In this document: piece by piece, positions 56,325-63,409 of the stretch | Layout: each line of letters starts with the position of its first letter | Position numbering within the stretch: the stretch's first letter is position 1 | NCBI RefSeq assembly: GCF_900302475.1 | Contig: NZ_OMOQ01000003.1 | Location: 434,001-498,000 of the forward strand | DNA length: 64,000 nt | Reading direction: 5' to 3' | DNA from: Defluviimonas aquaemixtae | GTDB taxonomy: Bacteria > Pseudomonadota > Alphaproteobacteria > Rhodobacterales > Rhodobacteraceae | The notes under the pieces: model-generated | Told to the model about the DNA's origin: nothing | The model's database searches: none | The model's input: the letters and a program-made list of their open reading frames with translations, nothing else | Made by a program: the position numbers and the translations under genes

Positions 56325-57401
56325 ATGTCCGATTTCGATGCCCAGATTCTGGAAAGCCAAAAGCAGGTTTCCGAGGCGCAGTCGAAGATTTCCGAGCTGA
56401 CGAGCCGGATTGAAACGGCGCGCCAGAAGCTCAAAGCGGGCGACGACGTGTCGATCGACATCGAGAATGCGACACTCGACGACGTCCACAAGCATGCCGA
56501 GATCATGAATGCGAATATCGCCGAGCTAATCATGGGGCTCGACGACGTAACGGCGGGCTTCTCCAAGGATTTCGACGAGATGCGGTCGAAGACCGGCTGG
56601 GAGAGCTTCGTCGGCATCTTCGCCGCCGGCAAGTCCGAGGCGATGCGGCAGGAGCGCCTGCGCGGCGCCTCCATCGACGACAAGCTTCAGGACCTGATCG
56701 GTAAGTCCGACGTGATCGTGAAGCTGCTGGAAAGCCAACTTAACGTGCTGAACGAGCACAAGAACAAGGTCGAAGGGAACCTCACCGAGACGCTCGGCGA
56801 GCGCGAGGTTACGGTGGGCGAGCTCGAGACGCTTCGCGCCGACATCCAGGCGATGGACCCGAAGATCATCGAGCTCGAAAACCGGATCTCGATGGAGCAG
56901 GACGCCGCTGCGCGGACGAAGCTGGAAAGCGAGCTCGCCGAGCTCAACAAGCAATACAACGCCATGGTGCAGGACGAGCAGGTGAAGCTCGCCAAGTCCC
57001 AGACGCTGGAGCGCTATATCGAGAAGGGCAAGACCTGGGTCGACTCGCTTCAGAACCAGGCGGCGACGCAGATGGTGCTGATCAACAAGCTGCAGACGGA
57101 TACGAAGCAGCGGGTCGTGCTCTACGACGCGCTGACCAAGTCCTTGAAGACCGCGCAGCAACAGGATGTGGCGCACAAGATCAACGAGATCGGGGTTAAG
57201 ACCGACCAGGAGGCGCAGGCGGCGATGGCCGGGATCGGGTCGGCGACGAACACCCGGATGGCCGAGATGCTCGAGGCGCATGAGGACCAGATGGTCTTCG
57301 CCCGCAAGGTGCTGGAGCAGAAGGCCAAGGCCGACGAGCGTTTCGCGCGGCGCTTCGCCGAGATCGTCGAGAAGCACGACAAGAACCTCTACGGTGGCTA
57401 A
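56325..57401 (+). CDS. TelA/toxic anion resistance family protein
   Basis: 358 residues with GGGGAGAG upstream. It is nearly all helical, with heptad-rich coiled coils (about 1-45 and 120-240) and the TelA-type core QNQAATQMVLINKLQTDTKQ. The end FARKVLEQKAKADERFARRF is also helical. TelA-family proteins are linked to tellurite or toxic-compound tolerance and often accompany ATPases or Ter proteins, but the mechanism is unknown. It is the first gene of a seven-gene forward operon; its TAA is followed at once by the GTG of the next gene. Confidence 0.88.
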   Translation: MSDFDAQILESQKQVSEAQSKISELTSRIETARQKLKAGDDVSIDIENATLDDVHKHAEIMNANIAELIMGLDDVTAGFSKDFDEMRSKTGWESFVGIFAAGKSEAMRQERLRGASIDDKLQDLIGKSDVIVKLLESQLNVLNEHKNKVEGNLTETLGEREVTVGELETLRADIQAMDPKIIELENRISMEQDAAARTKLESELAELNKQYNAMVQDEQVKLAKSQTLERYIEKGKTWVDSLQNQAATQMVLINKLQTDTKQRVVLYDALTKSLKTAQQQDVAHKINEIGVKTDQEAQAAMAGIGSATNTRMAEMLEAHEDQMVFARKVLEQKAKADERFARRFAEIVEKHDKNLYGG

Positions 57402-58529
57402 GTGCCCGAACTGGACCTGACCACCGACCACAAGTCGCTCGACGACGACCTCGCCGCGCGGCGCTACTTCGCGAAGTTCGAGCGGATCACCCGGCTTCTG
57501 ACGGGCGTCGCCGAGGAAATGGAGAAGGACCGCTCCTTCTCGGCCATGGACAGCGCGGTGCTGGAGGGCTACGTCCGGGCGATTTCGGGCACGTTCAAGG
57601 CGCTGAGCCTGAAATACCTCGTCTCTGGCCGGATCGACGGGATCGGGCAGAAGCATCTCACGATCGACCTGCACGACAGCGGATTCCCGATCTTCCAGGA
57701 GATCGTGACGATGGCGAATGACGCCGCGCAGGCGGGAAAGCACCTGGACGGCATGCCCGATGCGCTGCGGCTCAAGGACGAGATGGTGCGCCAGATCGTG
57801 GGCGAACGAGTGGTGCCGACGCGCCTGCAATATGCAATGTCGCAGCGGCTGTATTACGAGGCATTGCTGAAAGGCGGCATGTACTTCGCCCAGATGCATC
57901 CGCAGGCGCAGTTCATCGCCGACGTGTCGGGCGGGCGAAAGGGCTACCTCGTGCACTGGGCGGTCTATGACAGCCAATTGAACGTCCCCGTCGTCTACCT
58001 GATGGAGGTCGTGGATTCGGGGCGCAAGGCGCTGCCCTTGGACGAGCGCCGCTGGCCCGAAGCGCAGGCGCATCTGATGGCGCAGTCGGTGGGCGGGCTG
58101 AAGCTTCTGACAATCGCAAAGGGCTTCGACACCGATTTCGACGACCTTCATCCGAAGCGGCTGAGGCGGCTGCACCTCGGGCCGATGTATTCCTCGGCCT
58201 TCACACTTCAGACCGGGCCGATCCGCGAGGTTCTGGAGGAGGCGCGGTCACCCGTGGGGGAGGACTGGGCGCTTGCCTGGACGATCGAGGAACTGCTGAG
58301 CGAACGGGTCGAAGTCGAGAAAGGCTGGTTCTCGAGCGTCGAGCGCGAGGTCTTCAAGCTCGACCCGTTCTCAGGGCGCGGGGCGGAGACCGGCGCCACG
58401 CGGATCACACGGTCGCTGATCCTGCCGCAGCGTCCGTTCCAGGTGCTCGCGGAAATGGATCCGGCCGGGTTCCGGGACGTGCGTAAATTCGTGGTCGGAA
58501 AAGAGGGCCGGGTGCTTGTCTACGGCTGA
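57402..58529 (+). CDS. Uncharacterised protein of the TelA/AAA operon
   Basis: 375 residues from GTG 57402, directly after the TelA stop. No signal peptide or membrane segment is seen. The protein is a soluble mixed alpha/beta sequence; LEGYVRAISGTFKALSLKYL and GGMYFAQMHPQAQFIADVSG are notable, and no catalytic motif is recognised. Its place between TelA and the ATPase suggests a structural or adaptor role in one complex. A repeat unit lies in the 75 bases that follow. Confidence 0.8.
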   Translation: MPELDLTTDHKSLDDDLAARRYFAKFERITRLLTGVAEEMEKDRSFSAMDSAVLEGYVRAISGTFKALSLKYLVSGRIDGIGQKHLTIDLHDSGFPIFQEIVTMANDAAQAGKHLDGMPDALRLKDEMVRQIVGERVVPTRLQYAMSQRLYYEALLKGGMYFAQMHPQAQFIADVSGGRKGYLVHWAVYDSQLNVPVVYLMEVVDSGRKALPLDERRWPEAQAHLMAQSVGGLKLLTIAKGFDTDFDDLHPKRLRRLHLGPMYSSAFTLQTGPIREVLEEARSPVGEDWALAWTIEELLSERVEVEKGWFSSVEREVFKLDPFSGRGAETGATRITRSLILPQRPFQVLAEMDPAGFRDVRKFVVGKEGRVLVYG

Positions 58530-58530
58530 T

Positions 58531-58587
58531 GCCGCCCCGCGGGCTGCCTGCCCCCGGACCCCCAGAGGTATGTCGGCAATGAAGAAG
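58531..58587 (+). repeat. Dispersed intergenic repeat, copy 3 (inside operon)
   Basis: GCCCCGCGGGC-type GC-rich arms and CCCCCGGACC are followed by the tail CCCAGAGGTATGTCGGCAAT and GAAGAAG, ending at 58587. The tail matches copies 1 and 2. It lies 18 bases before the AAA gene start, within an otherwise tight operon. Confidence 0.6.
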
Positions 58588-58604
58588 ATGTGTGAGGGAA
58601 ATGA

Positions 58605-60542
58605 ATGACGGCGCCGCGCAACGAGATGGAGCTGAAGGAAGACGAGATCCGGGCGCACTATGCGGCGGCGGCTTCGATGCTGGACGGCCTCGATCACGCG
58701 CCGCGGCTCGCCAAGGCGCAAGTCGTGGATCAGCCGCGCGAGCGATCGCCCGGAATCGGGGCGCGCCCGCGCTTCCGCTCGACGACACCTGGACTTGTGA
58801 CCCGGTCGACGGCGCGGGCGGAGGGTGTACGGCTCATCGAGCGGATTGAGGGGATCGGCGGCGACGACCCGATCGTCGCGCCGGTCGAGGCCACCGTGTT
58901 GCAGGCGCTGCGGCGGGCGCTGGCGATCGCTCTGGCAATGGGCGAGGCGTTTTCCGACCAGACCGGGCTTACGGAACTGAAAAAGGCGAATCTCGAGAAC
59001 CGGTTGCCGGCCGGGCGGAAGAACGAGTTTTCCGAACTGCTGGCGGCGGAGGCGCTGGCAGTCCTGTCGGTCTTCGCCAATGCGACGGCGTTTCTTTTGG
59101 CGGCGCACGCGACCGAAGAGACAGTCGAGATCGGCTCGGTCGAGGAGGTGCTGACGGACAATGCACAGCTTGCATTGCATGGCGCACTTTGGGAGCTGGA
59201 TCAGGACGTCGCCTTGTTCGCGACCGAGGAGCCGAAGCTGGTGGCGACGGTTCTCGCATATGCCGAGCAGTTGATGGAGAAGGTGCGGCTGCGCGCGGAT
59301 TCCGCATCGCGCCTCGAGGCCTTTACCGGCGCCAATTACCGGGTCGAGGCAGACGACTTCCCGATTTCGGGCTTCGAGCCTGCGCGGAAGGCGCGCGGCT
59401 CGGCGCTGGTCATGACGTTCAAGAAGCCGCACGAGGTCGTGGGCAACCACATCGCCAAGTACCAAGCGATGCGGCTTGCCAAGATGCTGATGGCCTATGA
59501 TTTCGAGCGGAAGCTCAACCCCTTCGCTGAGCTGGGCGGTTTCATCTTCACCTTCATGGGCGACGGCAAGCCGGGGACGGGAAAGACGACGCTGATCCAG
59601 ATGATGGCGGGGCTGCTGAACGACTACTGCAAGGTGGCGGGCTATCCGTTCCGCTTCGCCAACCTCTCCATCGACAATGTGGATTCGTACCAGGGCAAGT
59701 CGGGGCAGAACGCCAAGGCGTTCATCAACAACGTGATGGACCCCGCCGTGATCGGCTTCGGCACGGTCGACGACATCGACCAGGTGGCGGGCAAGCGCGG
59801 CGACCGGCAGTCCTCGGCGGGCCAGCAGGAGATCACGGCGGTGCTGATGGAGGCGTTCGCCGGGGCAAACACGGTCGTGCGGGGGAACTGCACGTTCGGG
59901 ATGTTCTCGAACTACCCGGAAAACGTGGACGACGCGTTGCGCCAGCGGGCGGGAGCGCGGTTTCTGGTCGATGGCCCCCAGACGCGCGAGGATTACATCG
60001 ACATCCTCGCGCTTCTGCTGGGGAAGAACCACCAGATCGCGCTGGGGGAGCACGAGCTCTATGCGGCGCAGGAGATAAAGCGGGCGGTGGCTGAGAGCTT
60101 CGAAAAGCATTCGCGGCCGATGGAGGATGTCTTGCAAAAGGTCTTTGATCAGGTTCGCGGCGAGATCGGGGAACTCGACACGATCGCCAAGCTCGGAACC
60201 TATCTCAAAGCGATCCAGGAGGCGGACGAGCGTTTCACCGGCCGGGCGATCAAGAACATCACCGACGCGGTGAAGGTGCGCGCTATGGATTTCGAACTGC
60301 CGGACGAATGGATGGAGGAGCCGGAGCTGTTCCTCTCTAAGGCCTACGACGAGAAGAAGGCGATGATCTCGGAATTGCGCCGCCCGATCACGGTCGAGAT
60401 GGTGGTGCAGGAGATCAACCGCTATGCGGATTCGGAATTCCGCTATGCCGACAAGTCGGACGAGGTGGCGATCGAGAATGCGGTGCGCGAGATGGGCCGG
60501 ATGGAGGAGGCCAAGCGGCGGTATCTGGAGGGGAAGGGGTGA
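58605..60542 (+). CDS. Large AAA family ATPase of the TelA operon
   Basis: 645 residues from ATG 58605 (GAGGG upstream). The first ~280 residues are mostly helical and Ala-rich without a known domain. The AAA core follows: Walker A GKPGTGKTT at 321-329, Walker B-like IGFGTVDDID at about 383-392, sensor 1 Asn in MFSNYPEN and the Arg pair in DDALRQRAGARFLV. The C-terminal ~180 residues are a helical lid plus charged tail. It probably remodels a protein partner, perhaps the TelA-like protein. Only three bases separate it from the HEPN gene. Confidence 0.88.
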   Translation: MTAPRNEMELKEDEIRAHYAAAASMLDGLDHAPRLAKAQVVDQPRERSPGIGARPRFRSTTPGLVTRSTARAEGVRLIERIEGIGGDDPIVAPVEATVLQALRRALAIALAMGEAFSDQTGLTELKKANLENRLPAGRKNEFSELLAAEALAVLSVFANATAFLLAAHATEETVEIGSVEEVLTDNAQLALHGALWELDQDVALFATEEPKLVATVLAYAEQLMEKVRLRADSASRLEAFTGANYRVEADDFPISGFEPARKARGSALVMTFKKPHEVVGNHIAKYQAMRLAKMLMAYDFERKLNPFAELGGFIFTFMGDGKPGTGKTTLIQMMAGLLNDYCKVAGYPFRFANLSIDNVDSYQGKSGQNAKAFINNVMDPAVIGFGTVDDIDQVAGKRGDRQSSAGQQEITAVLMEAFAGANTVVRGNCTFGMFSNYPENVDDALRQRAGARFLVDGPQTREDYIDILALLLGKNHQIALGEHELYAAQEIKRAVAESFEKHSRPMEDVLQKVFDQVRGEIGELDTIAKLGTYLKAIQEADERFTGRAIKNITDAVKVRAMDFELPDEWMEEPELFLSKAYDEKKAMISELRRPITVEMVVQEINRYADSEFRYADKSDEVAIENAVREMGRMEEAKRRYLEGKG

Positions 60543-60545
60543 GCG

Positions 60546-61082
60546 ATGGCAGACCTAAGTCTTCAAGCATTTGATGAAGTAATTAATGCGCGTCGGACTT
60601 TGCACGGAGGTAATCGAGGAGCCCCAGTTAAACTCGCTGATGGTTCTCGCGAGGGCATTGCCCTCAACAACGCGTGTGTGGTGATGCTTTCATCGGCGCT
60701 GCAATCTTTTGTTGAAGAAGTCTTTCTGGATTGCTCTTTCAAGGCGTTTGGTCGCGTGCTCGTTGAACCGGAACTTAGGAACTACCGAGCGACTTGGAGC
60801 CGTTGGGGTAACCCTAGCCCCAGTAACATCGTTAGCCTGTTTAGACGGTTGGGAGTAGACGATGTCTTCGAAGGATTGAGTTGGCAGAAGCAAGCTGCCG
60901 GAACTCTCAAATCCACGCTCGACACGATCAACCAAGTCAGAAACTGCATTGCGCACGGAAGTGCACTCACGGTTAATAGGCAACCCTACTCCTTGCAGCT
61001 CAATAACATCACTAGATGGCGGAACACAGCTGAGCAGTTTGGAAAGAGATTTCAGGCGCATGCGGAAGCGAAAATCAGATGA
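60546..61082 (+). CDS. HEPN-domain protein (putative RNase) embedded in the TelA operon
   Basis: 178 residues from ATG 60546. The last third carries Rx4H, Arg132 to His137, in QVRNCIAHGSAL, the ribonuclease motif of HEPN proteins. An upstream helix ALNNACVVMLSSALQSFVEE fits the RiboL-PSP/MAE-type HEPN fold. Codon use and base composition are clearly more AT-rich than in the flanking genes, which suggests recent transfer. Yet it is fitted exactly into the operon: three bases after the ATPase stop, and its TGA overlaps the next ATG (ATGA). HEPN proteins are often toxins or abortive-infection effectors. No separate antitoxin is evident. Domain call by eye. Confidence 0.7.
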   Translation: MADLSLQAFDEVINARRTLHGGNRGAPVKLADGSREGIALNNACVVMLSSALQSFVEEVFLDCSFKAFGRVLVEPELRNYRATWSRWGNPSPSNIVSLFRRLGVDDVFEGLSWQKQAAGTLKSTLDTINQVRNCIAHGSALTVNRQPYSLQLNNITRWRNTAEQFGKRFQAHAEAKIR

Positions 61083-62452
61083 AACGCCTCATCGAAAAAG
61101 GCCTGATGTTCGGCAATCTCGTCCATGTCGAGAGCCCGGCGCTGGTCGAGCGCTACAACCGCGCGCTGAAGGCGCTGACGGGGAAGGAGACCAAGCTTGC
61201 CGATTTCCATATTGACGTCTCGGGCTATTCGCCCGAGATCGGCGACGAGTTCTCCGATCATCTCTATCTCAACCACAATGGCTGCAACCGGCAGTTCATC
61301 CTTCTGACGACCGACCAGAAGAACGCGCCGCTACTGAACGCCAGGTTTTCCACTTCGCGCGGCATCCTCACCCGCTTCATCGAGGAAAACGAGGCGCAGC
61401 TTTTCACGCTGACCGCTCGCGACGCGGTGGCGGGGGAGCTTGAGAACACTGTCTACGACCTCGAAAGCCCTGCGCGGCTTTTTGATATCCGCCGCATCAC
61501 TGTCATCGCCGACACGACCGGGAACCATGTCGCCGAAGGGCAGAAGCTGTCGGGCCTGATTGAGAGGTTCCGCACCGAGGAGGACGGCTGGTGGGATGAC
61601 GTGCTGATCGCCGAGATGATCACGTTGGCCGAAAGGACCGGCGACGTGACGCGGAACCCGATCGAGCTGAAATCGACAAGGTTCGACCAGGGCAACTTCT
61701 GGACCGCGCATTTCGGCGGCATCTACGTCTTCCGCGACGTGAAGCACCCGGCGGCGATTTCGGTCGGGCAGAAGCAGGCGCTCGGCCAGTTGCCTATCAA
61801 GTATGTATTCGACATGGACGACCGCAACCAGATCGCCAAGTTCCTTGAAATCAACGACCTCGTGGAGCCGATCGTGAATGCGCCCGGCGCGGATGCGGCG
61901 GCGATCCTGCGCCAGAAGATGGACTTCATTGTGGTCACGGCGGCGGCGGGCCTTGGGCTGGAGATCGGCCACGGGTCGCGGCGCGAGCTGCGGCAGGCGG
62001 CGGCGGCGCTGGGCGCGCGGCTTCCCGACGAGTTCCAAGGCCTCGCAGCACTTCTGCGCTGGGTCGAGACGGGCGCCGACTGGCCACGCATCACCTCGTC
62101 GCACCCCTCCTATTTCTACACGCTACGCGCCAAGCCGCATGCCGACCGGGATCTCGTCAACATGCTCCTGTCGGAGTTGTCGCCCTTGGACGTCCGGCAG
62201 CTTTTCATCTGCCACAAGGAGCTATTCTACCACCTCTACCGGTCGTGGCCGGAGCCGAAGAAGGCCTTCGTCGCCGACTACCTCGAACGCGAATACCAGA
62301 TCGACAAGGCGGGCGCGCGACGAGCGCTCTTCGGCTCGGAACCGGATATGCGTGAACCCGGAGATTCCCGGCCGGGTTGGCCGTCTGGGCGCGAGGACGA
62401 TATTGTCGACATCGTCGGCCCATGGGGCGCCGTGAGGAAGGAGCGCAGATGA
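61079..62452 (+). CDS. Uncharacterised protein of the TelA/AAA operon
   Basis: 457 residues from ATG 61079, coupled to the HEPN stop. No membrane segment or signal peptide is seen. LIEKGLMFGNLVHVESPALV, FHIDVSGYSPEIGDEFSDHL and MDDRNQIAKFLEINDLVEPI look conserved in character. Near the end, SPLDVRQLFICHKELFYHLY precedes a charged tail. No catalytic motif is recognised. It returns to the high GC of the other operon genes. The stop overlaps the start of a small membrane protein gene (ATGA). Confidence 0.8.
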   Translation: MKRLIEKGLMFGNLVHVESPALVERYNRALKALTGKETKLADFHIDVSGYSPEIGDEFSDHLYLNHNGCNRQFILLTTDQKNAPLLNARFSTSRGILTRFIEENEAQLFTLTARDAVAGELENTVYDLESPARLFDIRRITVIADTTGNHVAEGQKLSGLIERFRTEEDGWWDDVLIAEMITLAERTGDVTRNPIELKSTRFDQGNFWTAHFGGIYVFRDVKHPAAISVGQKQALGQLPIKYVFDMDDRNQIAKFLEINDLVEPIVNAPGADAAAILRQKMDFIVVTAAAGLGLEIGHGSRRELRQAAAALGARLPDEFQGLAALLRWVETGADWPRITSSHPSYFYTLRAKPHADRDLVNMLLSELSPLDVRQLFICHKELFYHLYRSWPEPKKAFVADYLEREYQIDKAGARRALFGSEPDMREPGDSRPGWPSGREDDIVDIVGPWGAVRKERR

Positions 62453-62727
62453 TCGCCTTTGTCCGTCTTGCCGTTTTCGGCTTCATCGCGATGACGATCA
62501 TGTATGTACTGCTGTCGATCTATTCGCGCTCGGTCGAACGCGAGCGGCTTGAGAAGGAATGGGACGCCAATCACGGCGGCGGGGGTGATAGTGCCGCAAG
62601 GGACGCCTATATCGAGGCGGGAATGCGCGCGTACCAAGGGAGTTTGCGCCGGAAGCTCATATGGCTCGTCTATGTCATCCCAACGGTGCTGGTGCTTGTC
62701 CTCGTCTATCTGACGAACGTTTATTGA
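62449..62727 (+). CDS. Small two-TM membrane protein
   Basis: 92 residues from ATG 62449, overlapping the previous stop by four bases. Two hydrophobic segments, MIAFVRLAVFGFIAMTIMYV and LIWLVYVIPTVLVLVLVYLT, flank a charged loop with SRSVERERLEKEWDANHGGG. It could anchor the operon's soluble proteins to the inner membrane. No family is recognised. Confidence 0.8.
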   Translation: MIAFVRLAVFGFIAMTIMYVLLSIYSRSVERERLEKEWDANHGGGGDSAARDAYIEAGMRAYQGSLRRKLIWLVYVIPTVLVLVLVYLTNVY

Positions 62728-62734
62728 GGCGATA

Positions 62735-63409
62735 ATGAGATACGCAAAATGGACTTTCCTCACTCTGATCGCGCTGATCGTCTTTGGCTTTCTGCACTAC
62801 ACGTTGCCGCAGCATGACATCGTCAGGATCGTTAACACCTACCAGGAACGGCAGGACTTGAACGACTGGACACGCATCTTCTGGTCAAGCCCGGACGACC
62901 AGTCTGGCGGGCTGATCAACCGCGATGTCCAGTTCATTCAGGCCGTGAAGGCCAACGGCAAGCCGATGGTCTACAGAAACGAGGATACGAGCTGGTCCTG
63001 GCCGCCGTACTTCAAGTTCGACACGGCCAATCTTCAGACCGAGGCGGAGGACCAGAAGTCGACCGCGGCGGACCCGCAATGGGTCTCGGTCACGCATTAC
63101 GGTTGGCGCATCGTGTATTTCTCCGCCTTCCCGAACGCGATTGCGATCAAGCCCGTGGATGGCCCTGACGTGACGGTCATCCCGTGGTTCAACATCTTCT
63201 TCTTCATCGTTCTGCTGCTTATCATCTTCATGATCCGCCGCATGTGGCTGCAGTTCCGCGAGCGCATGATCGATCCTGTCATCGAGGATGTCGGCGAGGC
63301 CTGGGACAGCGTCGATCAGCGTGCCGACGACGCGGCGGACCGGGCGCGCGGCACCTGGGGGCGTTTCAAGGCATGGCTTGGCACCTGGAAGGGCAGGCCG
63401 CGGCACTAG
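62735..63409 (+). CDS. DUF1523 family membrane protein
   Basis: 224 residues. An N-terminal membrane segment is followed by HYTLPQHDIVRIVNTYQERQ and INRDVQFIQAV, hallmarks of DUF1523. Then come a periplasmic-like domain, a second TM (FFFIVLLLIIFMIRRMWLQF) and a charged cytoplasmic tail. The function is unknown. It is the last gene of the TelA operon, seven bases after the small membrane protein. Its TAG stop shares CTAG with the stop of the convergent gene. Confidence 0.87.
   Translation: MRYAKWTFLTLIALIVFGFLHYTLPQHDIVRIVNTYQERQDLNDWTRIFWSSPDDQSGGLINRDVQFIQAVKANGKPMVYRNEDTSWSWPPYFKFDTANLQTEAEDQKSTAADPQWVSVTHYGWRIVYFSAFPNAIAIKPVDGPDVTVIPWFNIFFFIVLLLIIFMIRRMWLQFRERMIDPVIEDVGEAWDSVDQRADDAADRARGTWGRFKAWLGTWKGRPRH

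Follow-up and report, generated by a model that had tools for sequence, protein, structure and literature searches.

We examined a 64,000-nucleotide stretch of the Defluviimonas aquaemixtae genome (contig NZ_OMOQ01000003.1, positions 434,001 to 498,000; hereafter the window), and within it a row of seven genes, here lettered A to G, which a preliminary description made from the letters alone had presented as one operon, possibly a stress or defence system. The seven open reading frames (ORFs) lie where that description had placed them, all on one strand and free of internal stops. Comparison with relatives indicates that six of them (A, B, C, E, F and G) constitute a conserved operon, and that the seventh, the HEPN gene D, is the local occupant of a hypervariable slot between C and E in which whole genes are exchanged. 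The genes and features are listed below, with coordinates counted from the first base of the window.

56325..57401, + strand: gene A, core; coiled-coil protein of 358 amino acids (aa) without a Pfam family, 75–91% identical in 27 aligned relatives
57401..57402, + strand: A-B junction, read here as a second variable slot; empty in this genome (0-base gap)
57402..58529, + strand: gene B, core; 375 aa, GTG start, no family
58605..60542, + strand: gene C, core; AAA ATPase of 645 aa (PF00004, 7.5e-13), 74–88% identical in 19 relatives
59565..59588, + strand: Walker A motif of gene C, GKPGTGKT, residues 321–328; seven of the eight residues invariant among aligned relatives, the second varying
60543..61078, + strand: C-E slot, the exchange position, from the stop codon of C to the start codon of E; 536 base pairs (bp) here
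60546..61082, + strand: gene D, slot occupant; HEPN_RiboL-PSP protein of 178 aa (PF18735, 4e-10)
60939..60956, + strand: R-x4-H motif of gene D, RNCIAH, at residue 132
61079..62452, + strand: gene E, core; DUF6638 protein of 457 aa (PF20343, 2.6e-226)
62449..62727, + strand: gene F; small hydrophobic protein of 92 aa, its position kept in relatives
62735..63409, + strand: gene G; DUF1523 protein of 224 aa (PF07509, 7.4e-75)

The genes are tightly spaced, with gaps of 0 bases at A-B, 3 at C-D and 7 at F-G and with four-base ATGA overlaps (-4) at D-E and E-F, as the preliminary description reported; the 75-base gap between B and C it left unmentioned. Gene C is indeed a member of the AAA ATPases (PF00004), combining the profile match with nucleotide-binding motifs, among them a Walker-B-like stretch, IGFGTVDDID, in which DD stands instead of DE. 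Gene E matches PF20343 with 752 bits over positions 1–439 of 439 and is a full-length DUF6638 member, and gene D, at 40.3 bits against a cut-off of 28.4 and with a single R-x4-H motif, belongs to HEPN_RiboL-PSP, which upholds the HEPN assignment made earlier. No Pfam family was found above its cut-off for A, B or F. Gene A is predicted, at low confidence, to be a long helical protein; the AlphaFold model of B, with a predicted local distance difference test score (pLDDT) of 86.5, has no convincing match in the PDB, and none of A, B, C and E found a credible relative of solved structure in profile searches, so that the already described housekeeping complex which the preliminary description had allowed for was not encountered. 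Among the PADLOC models the best matches to the core were of C to TRIP13 (4.5e-6) and of A to LmuB (1.3e-4), and B, E, F and G had none at E<=0.1. The guanine plus cytosine (GC) content is 50.5% in D, 56.5–64.5% in A, B, C, E, F and G, and 65.3% in the window.

In a sample of 395 genomes of the family, each at least 90% complete, A occurs in 173 and E in 177, and each genome that bears A also has E. Across 110 loci, whichever core genes were found run A-B-C-E-F-G on a single strand; contig ends or short flanks cut several of these loci. Judged by this order, A, B, C, E, F and G are a conserved six-gene operon, and the HEPN gene does not belong to it, because the C-E junction of relatives holds other genes or none. 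The earlier assertion that the seven genes must act together fits these six and fails for D, given that the content of C-E varies in relatives; the companion suggestion, that the HEPN gene is a strain-specific addition with which the operon is armed here, agrees with what the comparison revealed. The identities of A (75–91%) and C (74–88%) are high for an operon of such patchy presence. Across the class, sampled at 289 genomes, A turned up in 7, of which two lie outside the family. The order A-B-C-E recurs in both out-of-family genomes, in three plasmid records from Rhizobiaceae and in a pair of Vibrio records that are filed as plasmids (gene order was examined in 5 of the 10 plasmid records containing C). 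The Vibrio loci (L253:7128-12676 and L258:5128-10676) consist of A-B-C-E with a C-E gap of 48 bp and with mfd next, and the profiles of F and G matched nothing there. Within the family, one genome (G292, locus L108) has A-B-C and the DUF6638 gene on different contigs (C11 and C17), splitting the operon, and another (G016) has two DUF6638 matches, on contigs 56 and 6.

For the C-E junction, 218 loci were assembled, 15 of which were unusable because C or E was absent from the stretch, no start could be placed or a large insert intervened; with 25 copies taken out, 178 junctions were left, and since L062/L135 and L082/L113 are also copies, 176 are distinct. Gap and pair counts below refer to the 176-locus set, while content, cluster, overlap, boundary and tree counts were made on the 178-slot set and include both extra copies. 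The 80 named loci ranked highest among at least 584, and slot content played no part in the choice of any locus. The gap between C and E exceeds 150 bp in 158 of the 176 distinct loci and falls below it in 18, with a median of 613 bp; in a set of 105 loci having both genes it exceeded 150 bp in 96. Ungapped column identity over 157 slots drops from 0.64 over the final 15 bases of C to 0.26 over the following 15, and climbs from 0.31 in the 15 bases before E to 0.79 in its first 15. Because identity is lost as C ends and regained as E begins, the alignments show the junction to be a hypervariable slot, in which whole-gene content is exchanged between the stop of C and the start of E.

Sorted by content, 83 slots have an occupant of 150 aa or longer, 58 contain nothing but small membrane proteins, 10 have other small occupants and 18 are empty; in the remaining 9 no operon-strand ORF reaches 90 aa. 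ORFs of at least 90 aa lie on the operon strand in 160 of 185 cases with no strand weighting; when the threshold is 60 aa and the operon strand is given a 1.25 preference (178 slots), 205 of 213 lie on that strand. These fall into up to 86 clusters, a figure that is an upper bound, since single-linkage clustering at 1e-4 splits diverged homologues. The start of the occupant overlaps the stop of C by four nucleotides in 64 of 151 slots, and its own stop overlaps the ATG of E by four nucleotides in 92 of 151. Of 160 filled slots, 82 have a Shine-Dalgarno-like motif upstream of E, compared with 11, 14, 12 and 20 of 160 in control intervals; the motif falls within the 3' ends of unrelated occupants. 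Mean GC of the slot is 0.545, compared with 0.597 for the end of C, and is the lower of the two in 94 of 140. At one locus (L231:1944-7857) the slot measures 5.9 kb and encodes, on the operon strand, a 1314-aa protein ending in repeats of calcium-binding type and a 327-aa sulfotransferase-looking protein, both named by eye.

The commonest occupants are small membrane proteins. Among ORFs of 90–149 aa, at least two transmembrane segments are predicted for 86 of 104 in the slot and for 7 of 104 called mechanically in the flanks; shuffled slot DNA gives 36 such ORFs among 2099, and the reverse strand of real slots 0 among 13. The 83 larger occupants, counted one per slot, include at a Pfam threshold of 1e-3 putAbiC (3), AbiJ_NTD4 (3), DUF559 (2) and HATPase_c_2 (2), with one each of Mrr, HEPN, DUF3825, DUF2971, a thioredoxin-like family and DUF433. 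PADLOC models match single members strongly (mREase_IV at 9e-33, PDC-S02 at 1.6e-31, PDC-S31 at 1.2e-23) and also AbiP and DrmA in three occupants each (best 2.1e-9 and 7.6e-9), where the strongest match among 83 control flank proteins was 5.8e-8; metabolic and regulatory families appear among the Pfam matches of those control proteins, of which 25 of 65 are listed. What was found, in short, is an operon with unrelated defence-type genes at one fixed position.

Two occupant families deserve description. Cluster 2 combines a constant membrane stretch (61% mean identity) with a C-terminal part at 15%, in an alignment of 20 members from which L135 was left out, and three members have a putAbiC domain. 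Cluster 4, comprising seven slot proteins, has no Pfam family and carries an invariant R124 and H130, six residues apart; by our own reading of this spacing as HEPN-like, it is possibly a new HEPN group. Individual slots show further arrangements. On pSymB of Sinorhizobium meliloti Ak57 (L252:8974-14309) the slot contains an annotated endonuclease-domain gene and an ISRm16 transposase, with a DUF2333 gene after E; in Sinorhizobium sp. K101 (L256:8891-9652) it has a 147-aa ORF that is DUF559-like by eye. A PIN-like protein directly follows the DUF433 protein at L057, and at L123 (504-935 and its neighbour) an occupant of the Mrr cluster appears as two ORFs in one slot, possibly a broken gene.

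Other junctions were measured for comparison. E-F (median -1) and F-G (median 10) never exceed 67 bp in 105 loci each. The only control outside the operon, panB-panC, spans -22 to +26 in 27 of 27 loci having both genes, and 3 of 30 loci had no panC match. The B-C gap is larger than 250 bp in 5 of 80 loci, and at L077 and L108 a 521- or 522-aa ORF occupies gaps of 1.6 kb there. At A-B the gap exceeds 150 bp in 43 of 77 loci; 41 of these gaps contain an ORF of 60 aa or longer on the operon strand, in 35 clusters, 31 with at least two predicted membrane segments. Since large gaps holding operon-strand ORFs are so frequent at this junction, A-B is, on comparative gene order, a second, smaller slot. 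A phmmer comparison of its occupants with those of C-E gave no match at 1e-3.

Occupants turn over rapidly along the core. A shared occupant cluster was seen in 6 of 38 pairs of loci at core protein identity of at least 95%, in 8 of 98 at 90–95% and in 117 of 1190 at 80–85%; the pairs overlap, L157 and L162 each entering 14 of the 38 closest, and these figures are descriptive and not probabilities. On a FastTree tree of C and E, the 169 labelled loci with their 56 states require 111 changes against a shuffled mean of 129 and minimum of 123, a difference which suggests some inheritance of occupants as well as much turnover. Single clusters changed almost as often as they occurred, with 19 changes for the 21 loci of cluster 2, 9 for the 9 of cluster 3 and 7 for the 7 of cluster 4.

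We tentatively favour, at a little under even confidence, a reading in which a constant AAA+ envelope or stress module carries exchangeable effector genes linked to the core. AAA+ ATPases remodel their partner proteins, and HEPN proteins are often growth-arresting RNases. The constant part would be a cytoplasmic AAA+/coiled-coil machine acting at the inner membrane, an envelope location being suggested by F, G and the usual small membrane occupant. The occupants, presumably without promoters of their own, would be transcribed and translated along with the operon and would serve as exchangeable effectors, either membrane proteins acting on the envelope or proteins of nuclease, HEPN or Abi type that stop growth. 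The ATPase might release or position them upon sensing envelope or phage stress, and the HEPN protein D would, on this model, cut RNA. That the occupants work together with the core is weakly suggested. Should they prove to be cognate effectors, the operon would represent a new modular defence or stress machine.

Several observations weigh against this reading. The occupants are dispensable, as the 18 slots below 150 bp attest, and 5 of the 7 out-of-family operons examined have no room for a gene. At least 63 of the 83 larger occupants lack a Pfam family at 1e-3, and weak PADLOC matches are no fewer in the control set, the strength of matches alone being different. Occupant clusters were shared by 33 of 138 pairs at 85–90% core identity, and the signal of inheritance on the core tree points the same way. 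The ATGA overlap with E is in part a given, since the start of E supplies a stop codon in that frame. The core is not recognised by PADLOC and adjoins housekeeping genes, which are panBC and an M20 peptidase in this genome, mfd in Vibrio, and thymidine kinase and formate-tetrahydrofolate ligase in Sinorhizobium. Finally, the occupants include what are probably members of a single fast-evolving family (clusters 1 and 6, together 52 small occupants), and AbiJ relatives, among others, occur on plasmids.

The last point bears on whether C-E may be a tolerant landing or expression site, where arriving genes are kept by stable expression and function independently of the core; this we regard as possible, if on balance doubtful. 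Homologues of D are uncommon (48 proteins at E<=1e-6 including D itself, out of 135 candidates), and, the query aside, they occupy the slot position in 1 of 4 genomes with a match (G165) and lie outside it in the other three, with relatives on two plasmids, a conjugative one of Roseovarius and one of Mesorhizobium. The three slot matches of cluster 4 are all rows of its own query alignment, and its independent matches (G172, G078 and G000, at 4e-58, 7e-26 and 3e-7) are outside the slot in 3 of 3 cases; the weakest of these is in the present genome (G000:C1:637954-638622, 3.3e-7). The endonuclease-domain gene beside an insertion sequence in the S. meliloti slot, the existence of empty slots and the tolerance of a 5.9 kb insert with a 1314-aa protein are likewise what such a site would permit. 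It accounts poorly for the heavy over-representation of small membrane proteins, for the absence of cargo from E-F and F-G in 105 loci each, and for cluster 2, all five of whose strong matches (E<1e-60) in 199 genomes are at the slot and none outside. Of these five, placed by reference to the coordinates of E, G233, G078 and G160 already belong to the query alignment, which leaves G155 and G083 as independent cases; another six matches, weaker, lie away from any listed E gene. Given where the matches of cluster 2, cluster 4 and D fall relative to the slot, one family (cluster 2) looks dedicated to it and the others look like general mobile genes.

The reading of linked effectors can also be carried further, to an unrecognised polymorphic immune or envelope-stress system with a constant AAA+/coiled-coil core, constant membrane proteins, two hypervariable slots and cognate effectors gated by the ATPase, these being small membrane proteins, a membrane module whose C-terminal parts diverge, and HEPN/Abi/Mrr-type proteins. 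In this full form we consider it unlikely; a categorically new modular system is possible. The slot provides a predictable address for a pool of rapidly exchanged single genes, most of them unannotated, in a widespread family of aquatic bacteria, and if the occupants are anti-phage, reading the slot across genomes would be a cheap route to the discovery of new defence genes.

It is quite improbable that the occupants are mostly one fast-diverging orthologous small membrane subunit of an envelope complex that includes F and G, the others being occasional replacements or passengers. In its favour, clusters 1 (45 ORFs) and 6 (7 ORFs) have a W-x-P motif in common, which 56 of 92 small membrane ORFs carry, compared with 7.8 after shuffling. 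Eleven genomes have a cluster-1 match and no E; in all 7 loci fetched from 7 of them (L289-L294 and L298) a DUF1523 gene stands with a small membrane gene of cluster 1, without A-B-C-E, and F is present in 3 of the 7. Since cluster 1 adjoins DUF1523 in genomes lacking E, it looks like a natural partner of F and G. These loci also bear on whether the flanking genes occur independently in other genomes, which the preliminary description had held would count against a joint system: A and E do not (the 173 genomes with A are a subset of the 177 with E), but G, and sometimes F, stand without A-B-C-E, which in part counts against it. A single subunit is difficult to reconcile with occupants of at least 150 aa in 83 slots (81 without the two duplicates), with the 36 small membrane ORFs that lack the motif, and with an A-B slot that holds 35 clusters in 41 loci and shares no phmmer match with C-E cargo at 1e-3.

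A toxic-anion resistance operon of Ter/TelA type, for which the preliminary description had argued from a 'TelA-like' gene A, is hardly credible: the predicted long helical form of A is compatible with it, but A has no PF05816 match at E<=1, the sole PF05816 match of this genome (G000) is on another contig (contig 1), and hhalign gives A a probability of 0.4% against the TelA of 20 relatives, both profiles being shallow (Neff 1.5 and 1.9), and since A was not shown to be TelA the tellurite argument falls with it.

The favoured reading, of a constant module with linked effectors, has partial parallels among described systems. The embedding of defence candidates inside other systems is a known idea, on the portion of PMC12988326 consulted, and the guilt-by-embedding candidates of PADLOC (the PDC set and those embedded in Hma) resemble the present occupants as single-gene defence candidates inside the operon of another system; PDC-S02 and PDC-S31 are themselves matched strongly by occupants. 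In contrast, the host operon here is no known defence system, and its commonest occupants are small membrane proteins instead of recognised defence genes. Envelope stress operons that pair PspA/ESCRT-III with AAA+ proteins, as presented in the consulted part of PMC11237479, offer a resemblance in manner of working only, through an AAA+ ATPase with coiled-coil and membrane proteins; A had no PspA family match in the Pfam scan, and the main text of PMC11237479 contains no DUF6638, DUF1523, TelA or Rhodobacter. Genes E and G belong to DUF6638 (PF20343) and DUF1523 (PF07509), for neither of which a function was found: within the portion of the literature searched, papers naming DUF1523 are by title on other organisms or phages, and the name DUF6638 does not appear, for all the strong conservation of the core (A at 75–91% in 27 relatives). 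Gene D is like other HEPN_RiboL-PSP proteins (PF18735) in lying above the curated cut-off with an R-x4-H motif, and unlike them in sitting as an insert in this operon. A relative of D at 66% identity is found at about 6800–7330 of L296, among genes that by eye resemble phage structural genes.

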